A stretch of 34,240 bases of DNA from Gammaproteobacteria bacterium (lineage in GTDB: Bacteria; Pseudomonadota; Gammaproteobacteria; JAHELT01). Where the stretch lies: assembly GCA_029861595.1 (NCBI GenBank), contig JAOTYY010000013.1, positions 1-34,240 on the forward strand, read 5' to 3'. The first letter of the stretch is position 1. Each line of letters opens with the position of its first letter. The position numbers and the translations under genes are program-made. The notes beneath the pieces were generated by a model. The model had not been told where the DNA came from. It worked only from the letters and a program-made list of their open reading frames with translations, and did no database searches. Shown one piece after another: positions 10,551 to 20,066 of this stretch.

Positions 10551-11567
10551 TCAACCCTGCAGGTAGCCGGTCAGCACATTCACGGTGTTGACACCGATCT
10601 CGGCTACCGCGTACCCGCCTTCCATAACAAACAAGGTCGGTATCCGTAAGCGGGCAATACGTTCACCGTACACGCTGAAATCTTCGCTTCCGAGCCTGAA
10701 AAAGCCGATCGGATCTCTGGCGAACGTATCCACACCCAGCGACACTACCAGCACATCCGGTGCATAGCCGGCGATACGTTTACAGGCATCCTCCAGTGCC
10801 TGTTCCCCCCACACATCGTACGCTGTGCGAGGCGGCAGAGGATAGTCGCGATTGAAGCCTGCGCCTGCGCCCAGTTCGTCCGCGTAGCCGAGAAAGTGGG
10901 GGAAGACGTCCTGCGGCCGGCCATGCAACGACAGATAATAAACATCGTCTCGCGCATAAAATATATTCTGCGACCCGTTACCGTGATGAAATCCACGTCG
11001 AGCAACGCCACTCGTGAGGCGCCACAGTCGAGGCAACCCTGCGCTGCGATCGCCGCATTGTTGAGGAAACAATAGCCACCGTACAAATCTTTGCCGGCAT
11101 GATGACCCGGTGGACGGCATAGCGCGAACGCGTGTTTTTCACCCGCGGCGATGTAGCGCTGGGCGCTCAACGAGCACGCGGCGCTCGATTGCGCTGCCTG
11201 CCAGGTGCCGGAGGTAATCGCCGTTTCGATCGCCATGCAGTAGTAACCGAGTTTTCCTTCGATGTGGTCGGGCACTTTCTGGCGCATGCGCCCCGCCGGT
11301 ATAACGCTGGGGATTGCGTCACCGCGATGGTCTTGCGCCTTCCACATTGACCAGGCTTGTGCGAGGAACTGCAGAAAGTCGGCGCTGTGGACTTTCTCAC
11401 GGGAACCATGTCCAGCGGCTCCGGATCGACACCGTCGTGCAATCCCTGTTCGTGCAAACGGGCCACTATGTGGTCCCAGCGCTCCGGGCATTCGTAAGGC
11501 CGCACCAACTCGCTGCCGCACAACTCGCCTCTGGGAACCTGTGATCTTCGCTGCGGACTATTTTCAC
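10551..11567 (-). pseudogene. HDAC/acetylpolyamine amidohydrolase family gene with three -1 frameshifts
   Basis: Zinc deacetylase of the histone deacetylase/acetylpolyamine amidohydrolase family, expected to remove acetyl groups from polyamines or lysines. Family landmarks sit in three successive frames: [10 protein letters not shown]; then GSELVRPYECPERWDHIVAR; then REKVHSADFLQFL, CRPPGHHAGKDLYGGYCFLN and LLDVDF; and finally HHGNGSQNIFY, SLGVDTFARDPIG and VMEGGYAV. Joining them needs one extra base near 11533-11535, near 11401-11403 and near 10989-10991. Each spot is a run of three identical bases, and the three shifts together restore the starting frame. The start is GTG 11567, overlapping the MeaB-fusion stop as GTGA, which implies translational coupling. 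Zinc ligands and the catalytic HH pair are preserved, so either the gene is newly broken or the assembly has indel errors. Confidence 0.85.
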
Positions 11568-12757
11568 TGTGGCGCGCCGGGTCGCGCGCCGCCGACAGTT
11601 GCTACAGTCCCGGTGAACGTCGCTACCGTGGCACCATCGCTGCGGGTGACGATAACGCGATAGGTCGCGAACCGTCGGCTGCGGGTTTCCTCGACCGCGC
11701 CTGCAGTCAGGACATCGCCGACTTTCACCGCGCGTGGATACGTGATGTGGGCATCGATTCCGGCGGCGACAACACCGTGCGAATTCGAAGCAAGACCAAA
11801 GGCCGCATCCGCCAGCGAAAACAGCGCGCCGCCGTGGCAGGTTCCATTGAAACTGATGTGGCTCGGTTGCACCCGCATGCGCACGCTGGCATGACCGCTG
11901 CCGCCAGTAATGAATTCGATTCCGAGATGCCGCACATAGGGGTCCTCCGACGCCAGCTTGCGCAACAGATCGGCGACAGTATGAGTCTGCGTCGCAGCGG
12001 GCGTATCAGTCACGATTGAGTCGTGATGCTCCTGCAGTGCTTCGGCTAGCTGGTCCACACCTTGTCCGGTGTGTCCACTGGTCATGACGACCGGTGGTTG
12101 CCATCGCTGTGCATCGCGCAAACCAAGCATTATGCGCAACTGCCTGGCTGTTTGTTCGGCGTGCGGCAAGTCCGCTTTGTTGACCACCAGGACGTCAGCG
12201 ATTTCCAGGATGCCCGCTTTGAGCGCTTGTACCTCGTCGCCAAATCCCGGCGCGCTGACTACCACCGTGGTTTTCGCGACACCTGCTATGTCGACCTGCG
12301 ATTGCCCGCTGCCGACCGTTTCGATCAACACACAGTCCATGCCCGCGGCATCCAGTACCACTATCGCACCGGCTGTGCTCGCGGCGAGGCCGCCTCCATT
12401 GGTGCGCGCCGCGAGCGAACGAATGAAAACGAAGTCGTCCTGATCATGCTCGTGCATACGTACACGATCGCCGAGTACGGCGCCGCCGCTCAGAGGGCTG
12501 CTGGGATCGACCGCAATCACCCCGACCCGATGCCCGCGTGTACGCCACTCGCGAATCAACGCATTGCACAGTGTCGACTTGCCCACACCTGGCGGACCGG
12601 TGACGCCGACCACGCGCGCGCAACCGGTGTGCGGCCGCAATGCCTCCAGCAGTTCGGCGGCATGCGGATACGCATTTTCCACCGCCGTCAGGGCGCGCGC
12701 CAGCGTCGCCTTGTCGCCGCCGATCAACCTGTCAACGGCCGCCGCAACGTCGGTCAT
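11564..12757 (-). CDS. MeaB/ArgK-type GTPase chaperone fused to a PaaI-like hotdog thioesterase
   Basis: A two-domain protein of 397 residues. Residues 1 to about 270 are a MeaB-type G3E P-loop GTPase that loads and protects B12-dependent acyl-CoA mutases: Walker [10 protein letters not shown] (54-62), [33 protein letters not shown] and LVVNKADL. From about 280 on is a hotdog domain of the PaaI/acyl-CoA thioesterase type with [19 protein letters not shown] and [14 protein letters not shown]. The usual MeaB C-terminal dimerisation segment seems replaced by the hotdog domain. The start codon overlaps the mutase stop as ATGA, so it is coupled to the mutase it probably serves. The thioesterase may hydrolyse a product or a misformed CoA ester (inference). 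Confidence 0.9.
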
Positions 12758-14442
12758 ACGATGACCAGGGGTTGTCCGAATTCCAGCTCACGCCGCAGGC
12801 ACGCGCAGATTTCACCATGCGTCAGTCCGGCGATCGCTGCATCGACAATGTGTTCGAAGACGTTTTTGTCCACTGTATTACAGGCACGCTGCAATTCGCT
12901 CAACGCGGCCTGAACCTGCTTATTGCTGCGTGATGATTTATACGCCTGCAGCGATTGCAGGTAGTTCTCCATGGTGCCCGGCGCAGGACGCTGGCTCGCC
13001 GGGCTGACGTGCGCGGATTCATCCACCTGGTATGCGTTCACGCCAACGATTTTTTGCGCGCCGTTTTCGATGCGCTCCTGAAACGCCAGCGCTGACTCGC
13101 CGATCATGCGCTGTACCGCGCCGCTTTCGACCGCTCGATACATACCGCCCAGTGCATCGATCTGCCCCACGACCGCTTCGATCTCCGCCTCCATCTGGCT
13201 GGTCAGGGTTTCCACATAGTAGGAACCCCCCAAAGGATCGATAACGTCAGTCAGGTGTGCTTCCTCACGCAGAATATTCTGAGTATTGATGGCAATCCGC
13301 GACGGTTCTTCGGTAGGCGTGGTCAGCACCTCATCGTAAGCGTCGGTATGCAGCGACTGTGTGCCGCCGAAGATACCGGCCATCGCCTGCACCGCGACCC
13401 GCGCGATGTTGTTCAACGGCTGCTGACGCGTCAAATCCGCTCCCGATGTCTGCGAATGAAACTTGAAACGGCAGGCTCGTCCGGCATCGGCTTTAAATCG
13501 CTCGCGCACAATGCGTGCCCAGATTCTGCGCCCGGCGCGAAACTTGGCGATCTCCTCGAAGAAGCTCAGCGAAATGTCAAAGAAAAATGTAAAGCGCGGT
13601 AAAAACTCGTTCGCCTGCATGCCGCGTTCCAGGCAGTCCTCGGCAAACTGGATCGCCGTGCACAATGCAAATGCCATCGCCTGAGCCGGCGTCGCACCCG
13701 CCTGCTGCATATGCTGGCCGACAATCGACACCGGATTCCAGTTCGGCACGTGCTGCTGGCAGAAGTCGACTTCGTCCACCAAAACCCTGCGATTGCCGGG
13801 CAGACCCAGGCGCAGGAACATATGATTGGCGACGAAATGAGATATGTAGTCGCTCTGGTTCGAAGTGCCGGTGATTGCGGTCCAGGCGATACCGCGCCGT
13901 TTCGCCACGCCCAGAACGAAAGCGAGCAAGGTAAAAGGCAACGGGTCGTTCATGGCGGTGGATACGCGATCGATCGGTATCTCATCCAGACACACCTGCA
14001 TGTCATCGACGTTGTTCACTACGGCGCCGCAGGTGCCCAGCAGTTCGATATCCACTTCATCGGCGTCGTAGCCACGGTATACCGAGTTGCAGGGAATCAG
14101 ACTGACTGCTGTGACGCCGGCATCCATCAATTTACGCAACCGCCGGTTGTAGTCCTGGGGTGTGCCGTAACCGATCAACTGACGCTGCGTCCAGGTACGC
14201 CCGCGATGCATGCTCGAATAGATCCCGCGCGTCATCGGCGCAACGCCGGGAAACCCCAGATCTTCCATATAGCGTGACGCCGGCCAGTCGTCCGGCGTGT
14301 ACAACGGCTTTATCTCGATGCCGGAGCGGTTGTGCAATACTGGTTCTTCGCCGACCTGCGACGCATAGTCGCGCTGCCAGGTCGAAAGCGCCGAGTCGAA
14401 ACCCGGCAACGGTAACTGCACGCTTTTGGGTTTAGCGCTCAT
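12754..14442 (-). CDS. B12-dependent acyl-CoA mutase, large (substrate-binding) subunit, divergent
   Basis: Catalytic TIM-barrel subunit of an adenosylcobalamin acyl-CoA mutase, 562 residues, without the C-terminal B12 domain, which is encoded separately just upstream. Family blocks: [67 protein letters not shown] and [13 protein letters not shown]. By hand alignment to methylmalonyl-CoA mutase, His244 is kept, but the substrate-selecting Tyr89 is Leu89, Arg207 is Asn206, the neighbouring Tyr243 is Gln243, and the AFDLPT loop reads IPCNSV (116-121). Isobutyryl-CoA mutase has Phe/Gln and 2-hydroxyisobutyryl-CoA mutase Ile/Gln at the selecting positions, so neither fits. ATG 14442 has GGGAGA six bases upstream, better than an upstream TTG at 14463. 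The substrate is undetermined. Confidence 0.92.
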
Positions 14443-14478
14443 GTATTCTCCCGCTTCGCACAAGGCAGCGCGTGAACG

Positions 14479-14910
14479 TCAAATCTCCGGACGTTCGCAG
14501 CGCGCCTGTTCGGCCAGTTGTTGCACGGCCGCGACTATTTCTTCCCTGGAACTCCCCGGGTGAAACACTTTACTTACCCCGTTCTCGTGCAACATTGACA
14601 CTTCGTCGTCCGGCACTATGCCGCCAACCACCACGCGCACGTGAGCAAGCCCGGCGTCGCGCAGAGCCCGCATCAGCTTGGGCACTATCAGATGATCGGT
14701 CGCCAGCGAGCTGATACCCACCACGTCGACGTCCTCTTCCTGGGTCAGGGCCACTACGGCGGGTATCTGCTGCCACGGCCCCGTGTAGATGACTTCCATG
14801 CCGGCATCGCGCAGATAAGCGGCCACCACGCGGCTGCCGCGATCGTGACCGTCAAGACCGATTTTGGTTACCAGCACCTTGGCCGGTATGCCATCGCCGT
14901 TTGCGTGCAT
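14479..14910 (-). CDS. B12-binding small subunit of acyl-CoA mutase
   Basis: Cobalamin-binding Rossmann-type subunit (143 residues) that pairs with the large subunit 36 bases downstream. It carries the DxHxxG signature as LDGHDRG (His is the lower cobalt ligand), preceded by AKVLVTKIG and followed by VVGISSLATDH and VRVVVGGIVPDDE, as in small subunits of isobutyryl- and 2-hydroxyisobutyryl-CoA mutases. A split two-subunit layout is typical of those enzymes, while most methylmalonyl-CoA mutases carry this domain on the catalytic chain. ATG 14910 is the natural start; the ribosome site is weak. It is the first mutase gene of the run and lies 80 bases after the flavoprotein gene. Confidence 0.93.
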   Translation of the reverse strand: MHANGDGIPAKVLVTKIGLDGHDRGSRVVAAYLRDAGMEVIYTGPWQQIPAVVALTQEEDVDVVGISSLATDHLIVPKLMRALRDAGLAHVRVVVGGIVPDDEVSMLHENGVSKVFHPGSSREEIVAAVQQLAEQARCERPEI

Positions 14911-16115: not shown

Positions 16116-17237
16116 CTAACTGATCGAGCGGAGAAACTGCCGCCGTTCCTTCTCACCATCGATCTCAGCCGCCAGGACATTGTGCAGTTCTTCGCGGCTG
16201 CCCGCTGCGCGCGCGGCCTTACTGACCAGCACTTTGGCCAGCGGACCGACGAACTCGGCCAGTTTCACTTGCAGATCGGCAAGTTCCGCCTCGCTCCAGG
16301 CTGGTGCCGGTCCGCTGGGCGGCTCCGTCACGGGACCGGAGGGCACGTCCAAGCCGGGTTTACTCGATCGCAGCCCGAACTGTTTCAGTTCACGCAGAAA
16401 ACTGCGCTGCTCTCTTTCACCCGTGATCGATTGCACCAGTTCCTGCATGAAGGCATCGTCGCCGGGATGCCTGGCTTGCGCCTTCTTCACCAGCACTTTA
16501 GCCAGTGGACCCATGTGCTCGGCGAGTGCGCCCTCGATGCGCTGCAGCACATCGGGCGTGCGCGTTTCCTGTCCCGCTGCCGGCACCGCTACGGGGGCTT
16601 CGGTCGCGGGCGGTGCCGTCACCGCTGGACCGGTGTCGATATCTACGGGATCGGTTGCCGAAAGCTCCAGCGTTCGCGCCTCGCTGGGCAGATTCACCTC
16701 ATAGATAGCGTGCTCGCGCACATGTTTGTCCTTGTGCACGCCCCGATAGTGGAACAACTCCGCGTATTCCTGCGACAGACAACTGATGACTTCGTAGAAC
16801 GAGCGCGAGACGAAGATCTGGTTCTCGTCGGCGAACGCCATCACACGCTGCGCGACGTTGATCCCGTCGCCCAGCACGTTTGCTCTGTCGTTGATATCCC
16901 GCACCACCTTGACCGGCCCGAGATTGATGCCGATGCGTACATCATAATCCGGGCGATCCTCGGGGTGCATGTAGCTGTCACGAATTTTCACGGCGGAAAA
17001 CAGCGCGTCTTCCGGATCGCCGAGAAAACACAGGGCCGCGCCGTCGCCGGCGTCGACGACCACCCGGTCGCGCTCCGCCACCTCGTCCATGGCACCGGCA
17101 ATGATTTCGTTCATGTGATCCTTCATCTCGATCTGGCGCGCCACCGAACACTTCGAATACCCGACTATGTCGAGAAAAACGACGGAACTCAACCAGGTTC
17201 TATGACTTTCCATTCCTGTGGCGCGCCCCCGATACAC
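16116..17237 (-). CDS. Class III adenylate/guanylate cyclase with two C-terminal repeat modules
   Basis: Soluble class III nucleotide cyclase, 373 residues, making cAMP or cGMP. The catalytic domain covers about 15-185: VVFLDIVGYSK (metal Asp23), VVDAGDGAALCF (metal Asp65), VRIGINLGPVK, and LGDGINVAQRV with the transition-state Asn/Arg pair. A Pro/Ala-rich linker follows (about 195-228), then two copies of a roughly 55-residue module (230-284 and 319-373), both with GPLAKVLVxKA and ending FLR. The same module occurs twice in the kinase of this operon. The GTG start at 17237 shares one base with the haem-sensor stop (TAGTG), implying coupling; an in-frame ATG at 17213 is an alternative. The upstream haem sensor is the likely input (inference). 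Confidence 0.88.
   Translation of the reverse strand: MYRGRATGMESHRTWLSSVVFLDIVGYSKCSVARQIEMKDHMNEIIAGAMDEVAERDRVVVDAGDGAALCFLGDPEDALFSAVKIRDSYMHPEDRPDYDVRIGINLGPVKVVRDINDRANVLGDGINVAQRVMAFADENQIFVSRSFYEVISCLSQEYAELFHYRGVHKDKHVREHAIYEVNLPSEARTLELSATDPVDIDTGPAVTAPPATEAPVAVPAAGQETRTPDVLQRIEGALAEHMGPLAKVLVKKAQARHPGDDAFMQELVQSITGEREQRSFLRELKQFGLRSSKPGLDVPSGPVTEPPSGPAPAWSEAELADLQVKLAEFVGPLAKVLVSKAARAAGSREELHNVLAAEIDGEKERRQFLRSIS
16119..16283 (-). repeat. Shared tail module, cyclase copy 2
   Basis: Residues 319-373, the extreme C-terminus of the cyclase, with FVGPLAKVLVSKAARAAGS, then REEL and ERRQFLRSI. It is very close to kinase copy 2, which has YVGPIAGMLVRKAAKRADS and REEF. Confidence 0.75.
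16386..16550 (-). repeat. Shared tail module, cyclase copy 1
   Basis: Residues 230-284 of the cyclase. Conserved positions with the three other copies in this operon are L.....GP.A..LV.KA, then an acidic patch, and (E)....FL at the end. It is predicted helical from its pattern. Confidence 0.75.
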
Positions 17238-18109
17238 TACTCGTCGAGCATGCTCATGGCTTTTTCAAGGCTTCTGCGCATACGGTTGAAAGAGGCACCC
17301 AGCACCGCAATCTCGTTTTTACCACCCTCTTCGAACTCCGGCGAATCCATCTTGCCCTTGCTCACCTGATCTGCGATTTCGGCCATTCTGGTTACGGGCC
17401 TGCTGACTATGCTGCGCAGCATGACATTTAGTACCACGATTACGAATATGAAAACCCCGCCGAGCGTGCCCATGAAGGTAGTGAGTGCGGCTTCCGCGTG
17501 TTTGATAGGTACCGACATGGGTACCGACACCACCTGCGCGCCAACCACTTCGTTCAACTGCCAGCCGAAACCGTTGGCATCGCCGTACAAGTCGATCATC
17601 GAAGCAGGCGCCGCGTCGGGTGTGCTGTGACATGCGAGGCAGGCCGGTTTGGTGATTTTTATCGGTCGCGCGAAGTACAGCGACTGGCCCGACGGCGTAT
17701 CACGCACACCGACGAGCTCTTTGCGATTCTCATTGTTGCGAAATTCCTGAATCAAATCATTTTCCCATTCGACTGCGCGGTCCCTGGGGTTGGTCGGATT
17801 GAGCGTGGCTTCTTTGTAAGTATATTCGGGATGCGCATCGCGCAATTTGTTGAAGGTCTGGGTGGCGGCATACGCGGGCACGGTCTGCGGCAGGAACTTG
17901 CGCTTGATTTGTACCGCCAGCAACGGGCGTACCTCGCCCACGGTGTAACTGCGCATCGCCAGTGCCGCCTCCATCATGATCCCCGCCCGATCACGGATCT
18001 CCGCTTGCGCGTTCTTCTGCAGAATCGTGTAGGAGCTGTAGCCGGTCACGCCAAAGCCAAGCAGCAGCACGAAGATCAACACGAGATTGAATTTAGTCGC
18101 TAGTTTCAT
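17237..18109 (-). CDS. Tll0287-like (DUF3365) periplasmic c-haem sensor with HAMP domain
   Basis: Membrane sensor of 290 residues. It has an N-terminal membrane anchor (about 8-28), a periplasmic DUF3365/Tll0287-like domain (about 35-200) with one c-type haem site CLACH (157-161), a second membrane segment (about 212-234), and a HAMP domain (about 232-285, SIVSRPVTRMAEIADQVSKG), ending there without an output domain. GGAGAGG eight bases before ATG 18109 is a strong ribosome site. The protein must therefore act through a partner; the cyclase whose start overlaps its stop, or the kinase upstream, are the candidates. Such haem domains are thought to sense redox state or small gases. The family and haem motif are clear; the ligand is unknown. 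Confidence 0.9.
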   Translation of the reverse strand: MKLATKFNLVLIFVLLLGFGVTGYSSYTILQKNAQAEIRDRAGIMMEAALAMRSYTVGEVRPLLAVQIKRKFLPQTVPAYAATQTFNKLRDAHPEYTYKEATLNPTNPRDRAVEWENDLIQEFRNNENRKELVGVRDTPSGQSLYFARPIKITKPACLACHSTPDAAPASMIDLYGDANGFGWQLNEVVGAQVVSVPMSVPIKHAEAALTTFMGTLGGVFIFVIVVLNVMLRSIVSRPVTRMAEIADQVSKGKMDSPEFEEGGKNEIAVLGASFNRMRRSLEKAMSMLDE

Positions 18110-18137
18110 TTTTATCCTCTCCTGCGTCGCGAGTCCG

Positions 18138-18611
18138 TCACTGGCAATCTTTCATTTGCTGGTGCGCCCTGGAAAACCCGATCAGACTGAATTCGACGGT
18201 TTTCGGACCCGTGGTCGGCCAGGTCGGCCAGAAACGCAATTGTAACGTCGCACTGCGCCCGGCGATGAACTGATCCACAAGGGCCGGCACGCCGGTTTCG
18301 AATACGACGTTCGTCTCCCTGACCACGGAATCGACCATGACCATTTCCTTGCCGTCAACGCTGATACCGAGATCACCGAATTCCGCATCGATGTTCGAAT
18401 TAGTGGTCACGTGCAAACGCGTCGCATCGAGCCGCAGCGACACTGCCGTCTGACCCTGTCCGTCGTCAACCGATTTTACAGGTGTGAACATAAAACACGG
18501 TGTGCTTTCACTCACCCGCCAATTCGGCTCAGAGCCGCTCACGGTGTTTGCACCACCTGCGCACAGCAACGCTGCGCTGAAGAGATGCAAAAAAATGGGT
18601 TTGAGATTCAC
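18138..18611 (-). CDS. Small secreted protein of unknown function
   Basis: Exported protein of 157 residues with a signal peptide (hydrophobic core IFLHLFSAALLCAGGA, likely cleavage near VSG-SEP). No lipobox: Leu, not Gly/Ala, precedes the Cys. The mature part is beta-rich by pattern, with two Cys (in STPCFMF and in the last three residues KDCQ) that could pair. I do not recognise the family; it faintly resembles small periplasmic proteins of the IalB kind, without enough signal to call it. It begins GTG three bases after the kinase stop and ends 28 bases before the haem sensor, so it is firmly within the operon and may be a periplasmic partner of that sensor. Confidence 0.75.
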   Translation of the reverse strand: MNLKPIFLHLFSAALLCAGGANTVSGSEPNWRVSESTPCFMFTPVKSVDDGQGQTAVSLRLDATRLHVTTNSNIDAEFGDLGISVDGKEMVMVDSVVRETNVVFETGVPALVDQFIAGRSATLQLRFWPTWPTTGPKTVEFSLIGFSRAHQQMKDCQ

Positions 18612-18614
18612 GAT

Positions 18615-20066
18615 TCACCCCATCTGCGTATTGATCGCACGCAGAAACTCTGCACGGCTCACCTCGTCCGGGATTTCACCGGCCAGTCTGCGGACAAACT
18701 CCTCGCGGCTGTCTGCACGTTTCGCCGCCTTGCGTACCAGCATTCCGGCGATCGGACCAACGTAAGTGGCAAGACATTCTTTGGCACGCTGAATGGCGTG
18801 TTCACTGACTTCCTCTCGCGCAGGGGGTGGTGACTGTATTGCGCCGGCAACCTGCGCCGCCTGGTCTAACTCCTGGGTGTTGAGCATGCGCGTCTTGCCA
18901 AGAAACTGTGTCTTTTCCTCCTCCGACGGAATGAACCTCGCCAGCAGTTGTGTCAACTCCTCGACGTTCGATACCTGTTTGCCAGCTTTACGCACGAGCG
19001 CTTCCGCCATCGGTCCGATATGCGGCTCGAGGCTGGCATGCACCGTTTTCAGCACCTCGGGGCCGACCGCCGCGGCACGGGCATCCTGAGTTGCCGGGAC
19101 ATCGTGCGCAGCGGACCCGGTGGCAGACCTTCCCGCGTAACGCTGCCAGTCCGCATCGCCGTTTTCGCTCTTTAAACGCCGTAACACCGCGTCGGTGGAT
19201 TGCGGTCTGTCTTTGGCGTGCGGCGCGAGCAGCCACCTGGCGATGTCCAGCAACAGCGGAGAAAAACTCTGGCCCGCCAGTTCCAGCGGCTTGTCGACCG
19301 GATCGATTTCGCCGTCGTATAACGCCGCGACCCGTTCGGTGGCGGCCGGCGGCGGCATACCCGTCATACAGTGGTAAATCGTCGCGCCGACGCTGTACAG
19401 ATCGGTCCAGGGGCCCTGCCGGTCCTTGGTGTGGTATTGCTCGAACGGCGCGTATCCCGGCGTGACCATCGCGGTCAGGGCCTTGGTGTGCTCGCCCAGC
19501 GCCTGCCGCGCGGCGCCGAAATCCAGCAGCACGGGCGGGCCCTCAGTGCGCAGCACGATGTTCGCAGGTTTCACGTCGCGGTGTAGAAACTGTTGCGCAT
19601 GGACGTTACGCAGACCCTGCAGCAGAGGGGTCAACAACGCCGTTATCTCGTCCTCTCGCAGCACGCCGCGCGCGCGCAGGCGTTGCGCCAGTGAGTCGCC
19701 ACTCTCGAAATCCATTACCAGGTACGCGGTGCCGTTGGCCTCGATAAAACGAATCACGCGCACGATGCTCGGATCGCGAAACTTCGCCAGGGTGCGCGCC
19801 TCGTCGAGGAATCGGTCCAGTCCGTATTTGTAATGTTTGACGTCGCTTTCGGATCTGTGTGTGAGCGTTTCGCCGTCGGGCAGCCGATAGGCCAGACCGT
19901 CGGGCAAATACTCCTTGATCGCCACCGTCTGATTGAGCGTGTGGTCGTGCGCCCGGTAGGTAATGCCGAAACCGCCGACACCGAGCACGTCCTGCACCTC
20001 GTAACTCTCGATGCGGGTGCCCTTGGACAGGGCGTGGTTGTAACCCAGATTCATACACACACTCAC
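18615..20066 (-). CDS. Ser/Thr protein kinase with two C-terminal repeat modules
   Basis: Cytoplasmic Hanks-type kinase, 483 residues, no membrane segment. Kinase domain about 20-300: glycine loop GVGGFGIT (29-36), ATP-binding Lys51 in VAIKEYLP, catalytic loop HRDVKPANIVL (His162, Arg163, Asp164), metal motif DFGAAR (182-187), and activation-segment end GYAPFEQY. All catalytic residues are present. After a linker come two copies of the module also found in the cyclase (337-391 and 424-478), with IGPMAEALVRKA and VGPIAGMLVRKA. The GTG start at 20066 has a weak GGGA upstream; ATG 20054 is an alternative. It appears to open the operon kinase - secreted protein - haem sensor - cyclase. Its substrates are unknown. 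Confidence 0.93.
   Translation of the reverse strand: MSVCMNLGYNHALSKGTRIESYEVQDVLGVGGFGITYRAHDHTLNQTVAIKEYLPDGLAYRLPDGETLTHRSESDVKHYKYGLDRFLDEARTLAKFRDPSIVRVIRFIEANGTAYLVMDFESGDSLAQRLRARGVLREDEITALLTPLLQGLRNVHAQQFLHRDVKPANIVLRTEGPPVLLDFGAARQALGEHTKALTAMVTPGYAPFEQYHTKDRQGPWTDLYSVGATIYHCMTGMPPPAATERVAALYDGEIDPVDKPLELAGQSFSPLLLDIARWLLAPHAKDRPQSTDAVLRRLKSENGDADWQRYAGRSATGSAAHDVPATQDARAAAVGPEVLKTVHASLEPHIGPMAEALVRKAGKQVSNVEELTQLLARFIPSEEEKTQFLGKTRMLNTQELDQAAQVAGAIQSPPPAREEVSEHAIQRAKECLATYVGPIAGMLVRKAAKRADSREEFVRRLAGEIPDEVSRAEFLRAINTQMG
18633..18797 (-). repeat. Shared tail module, kinase copy 2
   Basis: Residues 424-478 of the kinase. It contains YVGPIAGMLVRKAAKRADS, then REEFVRRLAGEI and AEFLRAI. 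It is the closest partner of cyclase copy 2. Confidence 0.75.
18894..19058 (-). repeat. Shared tail module, kinase copy 1
   Basis: Residues 337-391 of the kinase. It contains HIGPMAEALVRKAGKQVS, then EELTQLL and EEEKTQFL, matching the cyclase copies position for position. Confidence 0.75.

Follow-up and report, generated by a model that had tools for sequence, protein, structure and literature searches.

Within the 34,240-nucleotide stretch of gammaproteobacterial DNA analysed here (contig JAOTYY010000013.1, hereafter the window), a Ser/Thr protein kinase and a class III nucleotidyl cyclase each end in two copies of a module of about 58 residues, and between their genes lies that of a receptor which stops at its HAMP domain. 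The module constitutes a family that pairs near-exclusively with such output-less receptors across sensors, effectors and bacterial classes, and that also occurs on a natural kinase-cyclase fusion in Polaromonas. HAMP is a standard relay of bacterial receptors, and since no domain follows that of the window receptor, the module is best read as an output in trans, i.e. as a receptor-coupling module with which effectors would dock onto output-less HAMP receptors, a reading to which we assign a probability of roughly three in four.

In profile searches, 31 of 369 genomes from the class to which the window belongs proved to encode the module, as did a scattering of genomes in the wider phylum. Across Gamma-, Beta- and Alphaproteobacteria, 52 module genes at 50 loci have a HAMP-terminated receptor near them, on the same strand in all cases and mostly directly beside the module gene (median gap 14.5 nucleotides over the 52 genes, some gap lengths being distorted by mechanically set starts of the open reading frames). 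The receptors in this tally extend at most 12 residues past the fitted HAMP, the profile of which was built partly from the tallied receptors themselves. Beside the 50 fitting loci there is one readable exception, and two more module genes lie at contig ends (L121, L135); in the 369-genome sample, 31 of the 32 readable module loci fit by our own count. The tally is not purely module-first, as related loci were collected with a cyclase profile (L053, L054 and L064 were found through their cyclases) and six plasmids entered through their receptors. Most module kinases occur without a module cyclase, yet nearly all adjoin an output-less receptor.

The same pairing is seen when the question is reversed. 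The genome to which the window belongs encodes 22 HAMP proteins, 20 of which run about 190 or more residues past the HAMP and have no module neighbour, while the remaining two end at most 6 residues past it and both adjoin module genes, a coincidence with a chance of 1 in 231 by hand calculation (one tail in this count, that of L306, was read by eye). The second of these two, on contig C252, combines dCache and HAMP; its neighbour carries two weak modules that only a deeper profile detects. Of 40 kinases without the module, drawn from the same 8 genomes, none has an output-less receptor or a Tll0287 gene nearby (one has a HAMP neighbour, with a fused output). Likewise, none of 8 module-less relatives of the cyclase from delta- and betaproteobacterial metagenome-assembled genomes has a receptor nearby, against 5 of 5 module-bearing cyclases (two of these five are genomes that had already been encountered). 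Seven Tll0287 proteins with fused outputs, and one without HAMP, showed no module neighbour, whereas in a receptor-first search of plasmids (Skermanella, Paraburkholderia, three Caballeronia and Rhodovulum) all six proteobacterial output-less receptors adjoin a kinase with two modules. A second class, presumed to be Alphaproteobacteria, was searched with the finished profile, and all six new module loci fit. The direction from receptor to module was covered by a non-exhaustive reading, for which 20 further Tll0287 loci were fetched. Within Proteobacteria, the association of module and receptor is thus close to certain.

Neither the sensor nor the effector is constant. The sensor is a heme-Cache or a dCache domain (dCache-HAMP receptors without output were found in L049, L050, L136, L138 and L288), and the carriers include kinases of two subfamilies as well as cyclases with one or two module copies. 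In Polaromonas eurypsychrophila (L064, 6888-9098), kinase, cyclase and two modules are fused into one protein, encoded beside a receptor. The second-class search revealed an MscS channel that carries the module and adjoins a Tll0287-HAMP receptor (L323, 2354-5478), which suggests a receptor-gated ion channel. An ACT-like protein is the carrier in L132, and in L136 (2367-5624) three consecutive genes encode a small MglA-like GTPase, a protein with the module and a receptor of dCache-HAMP type; by eye, the tail of the GTPase protein and the module protein look Roadblock-like. DUF4388-like carriers occur in L049, L050, L137, L138 and L288 (with a sub-threshold match in L137 only, the others being assigned by eye). 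All that these varied carriers share is the module and a neighbouring output-less HAMP receptor. On five of the six plasmids, the receptor-kinase pair lies amid genes of a type VI secretion system (T6SS; TssM, TagF, TssH or TssB/C/Hcp), with a PP2C phosphatase alongside in two of the clusters (L267-L271 set), and TagF and TssM also adjoin a pair of receptor and module kinase in L045. In the literature searched, no paper was found that combines DUF3365 with type VI secretion.

The module and the probable operon of the window

The features of the window that bear on this analysis are as follows.

18615..20066, minus strand: Ser/Thr protein kinase of FGITY type with two C-terminal modules (Pkinase, PF00069, E 4.9e-36; VAIK, HRDVKPAN and DFG)
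18888..19061, minus strand: module copy K1, kinase residues 336-393 (profile match and shuffle test)
18630..18803, minus strand: module copy K2, kinase residues 422-479 (profile match and shuffle test)
18138..18611, minus strand: 157-residue, probably secreted protein, family unassigned by Pfam (open reading frame, no Pfam match)
17237..18109, minus strand: output-less receptor of 290 residues, consisting of transmembrane helix, Tll0287/DUF3365 (sCache_heme), transmembrane helix, HAMP and stop (PF11845 E 2.6e-41, HAMP E 1e-9)
17519..18019, minus strand: Tll0287-like heme-Cache sensor domain of the receptor (profile match)
17627..17641, minus strand: CLACH, a CXXCH c-type heme motif, receptor residues 157-161 (sequence, kept in orthologues)
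17264..17419, minus strand: HAMP domain of the receptor, residues 231-282 of 290 (Pfam)
16116..17237, minus strand: class III nucleotidyl cyclase with two C-terminal modules (Guanylate_cyc, PF00211, E 8.8e-9; Foldseek match to Rv1900c)
16380..16556, minus strand: module copy C1, cyclase residues 228-286 (profile match and shuffle test)
16119..16292, minus strand: module copy C2, cyclase residues 316-373 (profile match and shuffle test)

An earlier note on this DNA, made from the letters alone, had described the kinase and the cyclase as each ending in two copies of a shared repeat, and this description holds: both open reading frames are confirmed on the minus strand, their identities are borne out by Pfam, the cores of the four copies align free of gaps, and the GP, A, LV, KA and FL positions are the same in all of them. 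Local alignments of the copies run gap-free over 44-54 residues at 35-54% identity. The copies also find each other well above background, as module pairs score 86-114 (BLOSUM62) against a shuffled mean of 22-24 and a maximum of 58, and in each of the six pairs 0 of 5,000 shuffles reached the observed score. A profile of just these four rows, run against the 4.33-Mb genome, is significant in the kinase and the cyclase only, and a deeper profile adds one further locus. The note had allowed for the repeat being an already named domain with another role; 26 diverse copies gave no significant or recurrent match to a named domain in Pfam-A, NCBIfam or the PDB. DUF8082, considered as a possible family for the module, was not confirmed in Pfam or the literature searched and was dropped, and a CorA-like match in L051 (E 3e-5) was treated as a false positive, being a 45-residue match only, with no HAMP neighbour detected. 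The module is genuine, has no name in the libraries searched, and is of wider generality than was first described.

In AlphaFold 2 models, which rest on shallow alignments (11 and 6 sequences), each copy consists of one helix of about 29 residues and two shorter helices, and the modules are preceded by flexible linkers with a predicted local distance difference test score (pLDDT) below 50. Position-specific profiles place second copies in a consistent type (36 of 39) and show first copies to be more loosely defined (24 of 39). By these profiles, the module of single-copy kinases, and that of several cyclases with one copy, is closer to the second copy, a result that is no more than suggestive.

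Kinase, 157-residue protein, receptor and cyclase are encoded on one strand with spacings of about 0-30 nucleotides, and because of these short same-strand gaps the four genes probably form one operon, in which the start codon of the cyclase overlaps the stop codon of the receptor. The identical four-gene order recurs in a Chromatiales metagenome-assembled genome (L038/L052), which represents another species of the genus. The two middle genes had been passed over in the earlier note. Homologues of the 157-residue protein (155-254 residues, no Pfam match) are encoded upstream of the receptor in L038, L040, L042, L116, L117 and L123, and this family may act together with the heme sensor in the periplasm.

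Signal and catalytic outputs

The receptor matches PF11845 with 141.8 bits (cut-off 24.1) and ends 8 residues past the Pfam HAMP, with no output domain. Its C157, C160 and H161 are invariant in three orthologues, its transmembrane helices were assigned by eye, and it presumably acts as a homodimer. As described in the available part of the source, the sCache_heme family (DUF3365/Tll0287) binds c-type heme, and a HAMP-bearing member, a 34.5-kDa protein of P. azotoformans with two transmembrane helices and HAMP, binds nitric oxide with a slow off-rate of 6.25e-4 per second (PMC12889525); judged from the anatomy described there, this protein is apparently itself without an output. Because the window receptor likewise has a heme-Cache sensor, and a HAMP-bearing relative binds nitric oxide, its signal is probably nitric oxide or the redox state at the heme. 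In another genome (G339), genes that by eye resemble those of nitrite and nitrate reductases are found close to a receptor-cyclase pair, a neighbourhood that fits a nitric oxide signal but is no proof of it. A Tll0287-HAMP receptor that adjoins a module cyclase in L118 (4339-4935) misses profile positions 128-206, where the CXXCH region is located, and is possibly heme-less or decayed.

On the output side, the kinase retains K51 (in VAIK), D164 (in HRDVKPAN) and D182 (in DFG). The cyclase scores 35.7 bits against PF00211 (cut-off 21.9), and its fold matches Rv1900c in Foldseek (E 7.9e-11). It has D23 and D65, which from the alignment of relatives and general knowledge of the class we take to be the metal-binding aspartates, and N127 and R131, presumably the transition-state Asn and Arg; N127 and R131 are invariant among the relatives, and both aspartates nearly so. 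The canonical Lys and Asp/Thr for base recognition are replaced by V61 and N120, so that the choice between ATP and GTP is not predictable. Cyclase activity is nevertheless plausible, and a cyclic nucleotide would be its product. In the Polaromonas fusion, Glu is found at both metal positions (FLEMV, SGEG), because of which its cyclase half may be inactive, i.e. a pseudo-cyclase. The 4.3-Mb genome of the window has 19 class III cyclase matches in all (some at contig ends or interrupted), which amounts to a large cyclic-nucleotide repertoire.

Elsewhere in the window, a MeaB-type GTPase (PF03308) is fused to a C-terminal 4HBT thioesterase (PF03061) in one open reading frame (11564-12757), downstream of a separate gene for a B12-binding protein (14479-14910) and of one for the large subunit of a methylmalonyl-CoA mutase-type enzyme (12754-14463). 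From their sequences, these genes appear to be an unusual acyl-CoA mutase cluster.

Possible roles of the module

As parallel four-helix bundles, HAMP domains relay sensor motion to the part downstream. In the receptor of the window, a periplasmic c-type-heme Cache sensor would be connected through two transmembrane helices to a HAMP after which nothing follows, and the three-helix module of an effector would dock on the exposed HAMP bundle or on the short C-terminal tail. In this way, the receptor would regulate separately made effectors in trans, and the one receptor of the window would control both the Ser/Thr kinase and the nucleotide cyclase. We infer that the docking is physical, that HAMP is its site, and that it activates the effectors rather than inhibits them.

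Several observations weigh against this. Adjacency alone can be explained by a shared function of the operon, and Foldseek searches with the module tail gave no informative structural neighbour (best E 0.81). In the window itself, the 157-residue gene intervenes between kinase and receptor. The one readable exception among the module loci is a kinase in G567 that adjoins no receptor (a 299-residue Tll0287 frame is located elsewhere in that genome), a HAMP-terminated Tll0287 protein in G624 adjoins a REC-kinase without module, and the 2.6 kb downstream of a cyanobacterial receptor from Rippkaea hold no module gene. Further exceptions in the reverse direction are two contig-end receptors in G554, one of which is followed by a kinase that is cut off before its tail.

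Of the other explanations, the one that survives best, though it seems unlikely, is that the module is a homotypic association domain that links kinase to cyclase or dimerises each of them, the receptor being a mere operon neighbour. Tandem copies on both enzymes and the helical predicted fold would suit such a role, as would the dimerisation that class III cyclases need. Self-association is, however, difficult to reconcile with the genomes of most carriers, which have no second module protein, with carriers of a single copy (L047, L054, L126, L320), and with the MscS channel and the DUF4388-like proteins, which share just the adjoining output-less receptor. Somewhat less probable again is an internal regulatory tail (e.g. 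autoinhibitory or substrate-recruiting) that answers to an input other than the receptor; the position of the module, C-terminal to the catalytic domains and behind a flexible linker, is in line with it, but it leaves unexplained why the module is absent from the 40 kinases and 8 related cyclases without receptor, and why it is used on unrelated carriers.

The earlier note had proposed that the module puts kinase and cyclase on one scaffold for a combined phosphorylation and cyclic-nucleotide pathway, which, although a second species of the genus has the pair as well (L038) and Polaromonas has a fusion with two modules (L064), is very improbable, since kinase and cyclase together are rare and the output-less receptor is the constant partner. 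What remains of that proposal is the shared docking element, with the HAMP receptor instead of the kinase-cyclase pair as its partner; kinases and cyclases do carry the module, but so do MscS and DUF4388-like proteins. The scaffold that the enzymes share is most probably the receptor whose gene lies between theirs, rather than contacts between modules, because the module cyclase of G339 is the sole module protein found in its genome and module kinases occur without cyclase, whereas the receptor is nearly constant. A combined output of kinase and cyclase nevertheless remains plausible for the window operon, all the more because of the Polaromonas fusion and the same gene order in L038.

Coupling to the receptor in trans can also be taken further, to a general adaptor domain by which output-less sensor-HAMP receptors would recruit interchangeable effectors (kinases, cyclases, an ion channel and small regulators), including a heme/nitric oxide receptor that drives phosphorylation together with cyclic nucleotide formation here, and T6SS control elsewhere. 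We consider the odds of such a new signalling class to be slightly better than even. In annotation, HAMP-terminated receptors appear as dead ends, and the module points to their missing outputs, so that sensors which look incomplete (among them, going by the anatomy reported for it, a nitric oxide binder) become testable receptor-effector pairs. It would bring to light a class of split signalling systems that has been hidden so far, and would lend itself as a natural plug-in for joining sensors to kinases, cyclases or channels.

Comparison with known systems

The window receptor shares its family, the CXXCH motif, the transmembrane helices and the HAMP with the sCache_heme nitric oxide sensors, for which the available part of the paper names fused outputs or stand-alone domains only, and describes no trans effectors, no module and no kinase, cyclase or channel neighbours (PMC12889525). 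The receptor-kinase pairs in the T6SS clusters of Skermanella, Caballeronia and Paraburkholderia, twice with a PP2C phosphatase, resemble the PpkA/PppA pathway of T6SS. The PpkA kinases known so far usually reside in the membrane and bring their own sensor, whereas in these pairs sensing and phosphorylation are assigned to different proteins. Membership of the window operon in this pathway was rejected, as TssB/C/H/M, Hcp and TagF had no match within the window. With the TOMM kinase/cyclase fusions (TIGR03903), the operon has in common that kinase and cyclase belong to one signalling unit; that family is without module or receptor, and membership was rejected because the match covers the kinase part only and is weak (69.7 bits, the cut-off being 705.75).

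Closer in logic is the MCP-CheW/CheA system, in which an enzymatically inactive HAMP receptor controls a separate kinase via a dedicated docking domain. The proposed system likewise has a HAMP receptor without enzyme activity and a separate kinase, but methyl-accepting chemotaxis proteins (MCPs) have a long signalling hairpin, whereas the window receptor stops at HAMP and the module is found on many kinds of effector. The HAMP-linked class III adenylate cyclases, finally, have the same order and logic of sensor, HAMP and cyclase, and the window operon reads like such a cyclase split at the border between HAMP and cyclase, where stop and start codon overlap. Unlike these single polypeptides, it comprises two proteins, with a cyclase that carries C-terminal modules and a receptor that would be shared with the kinase.

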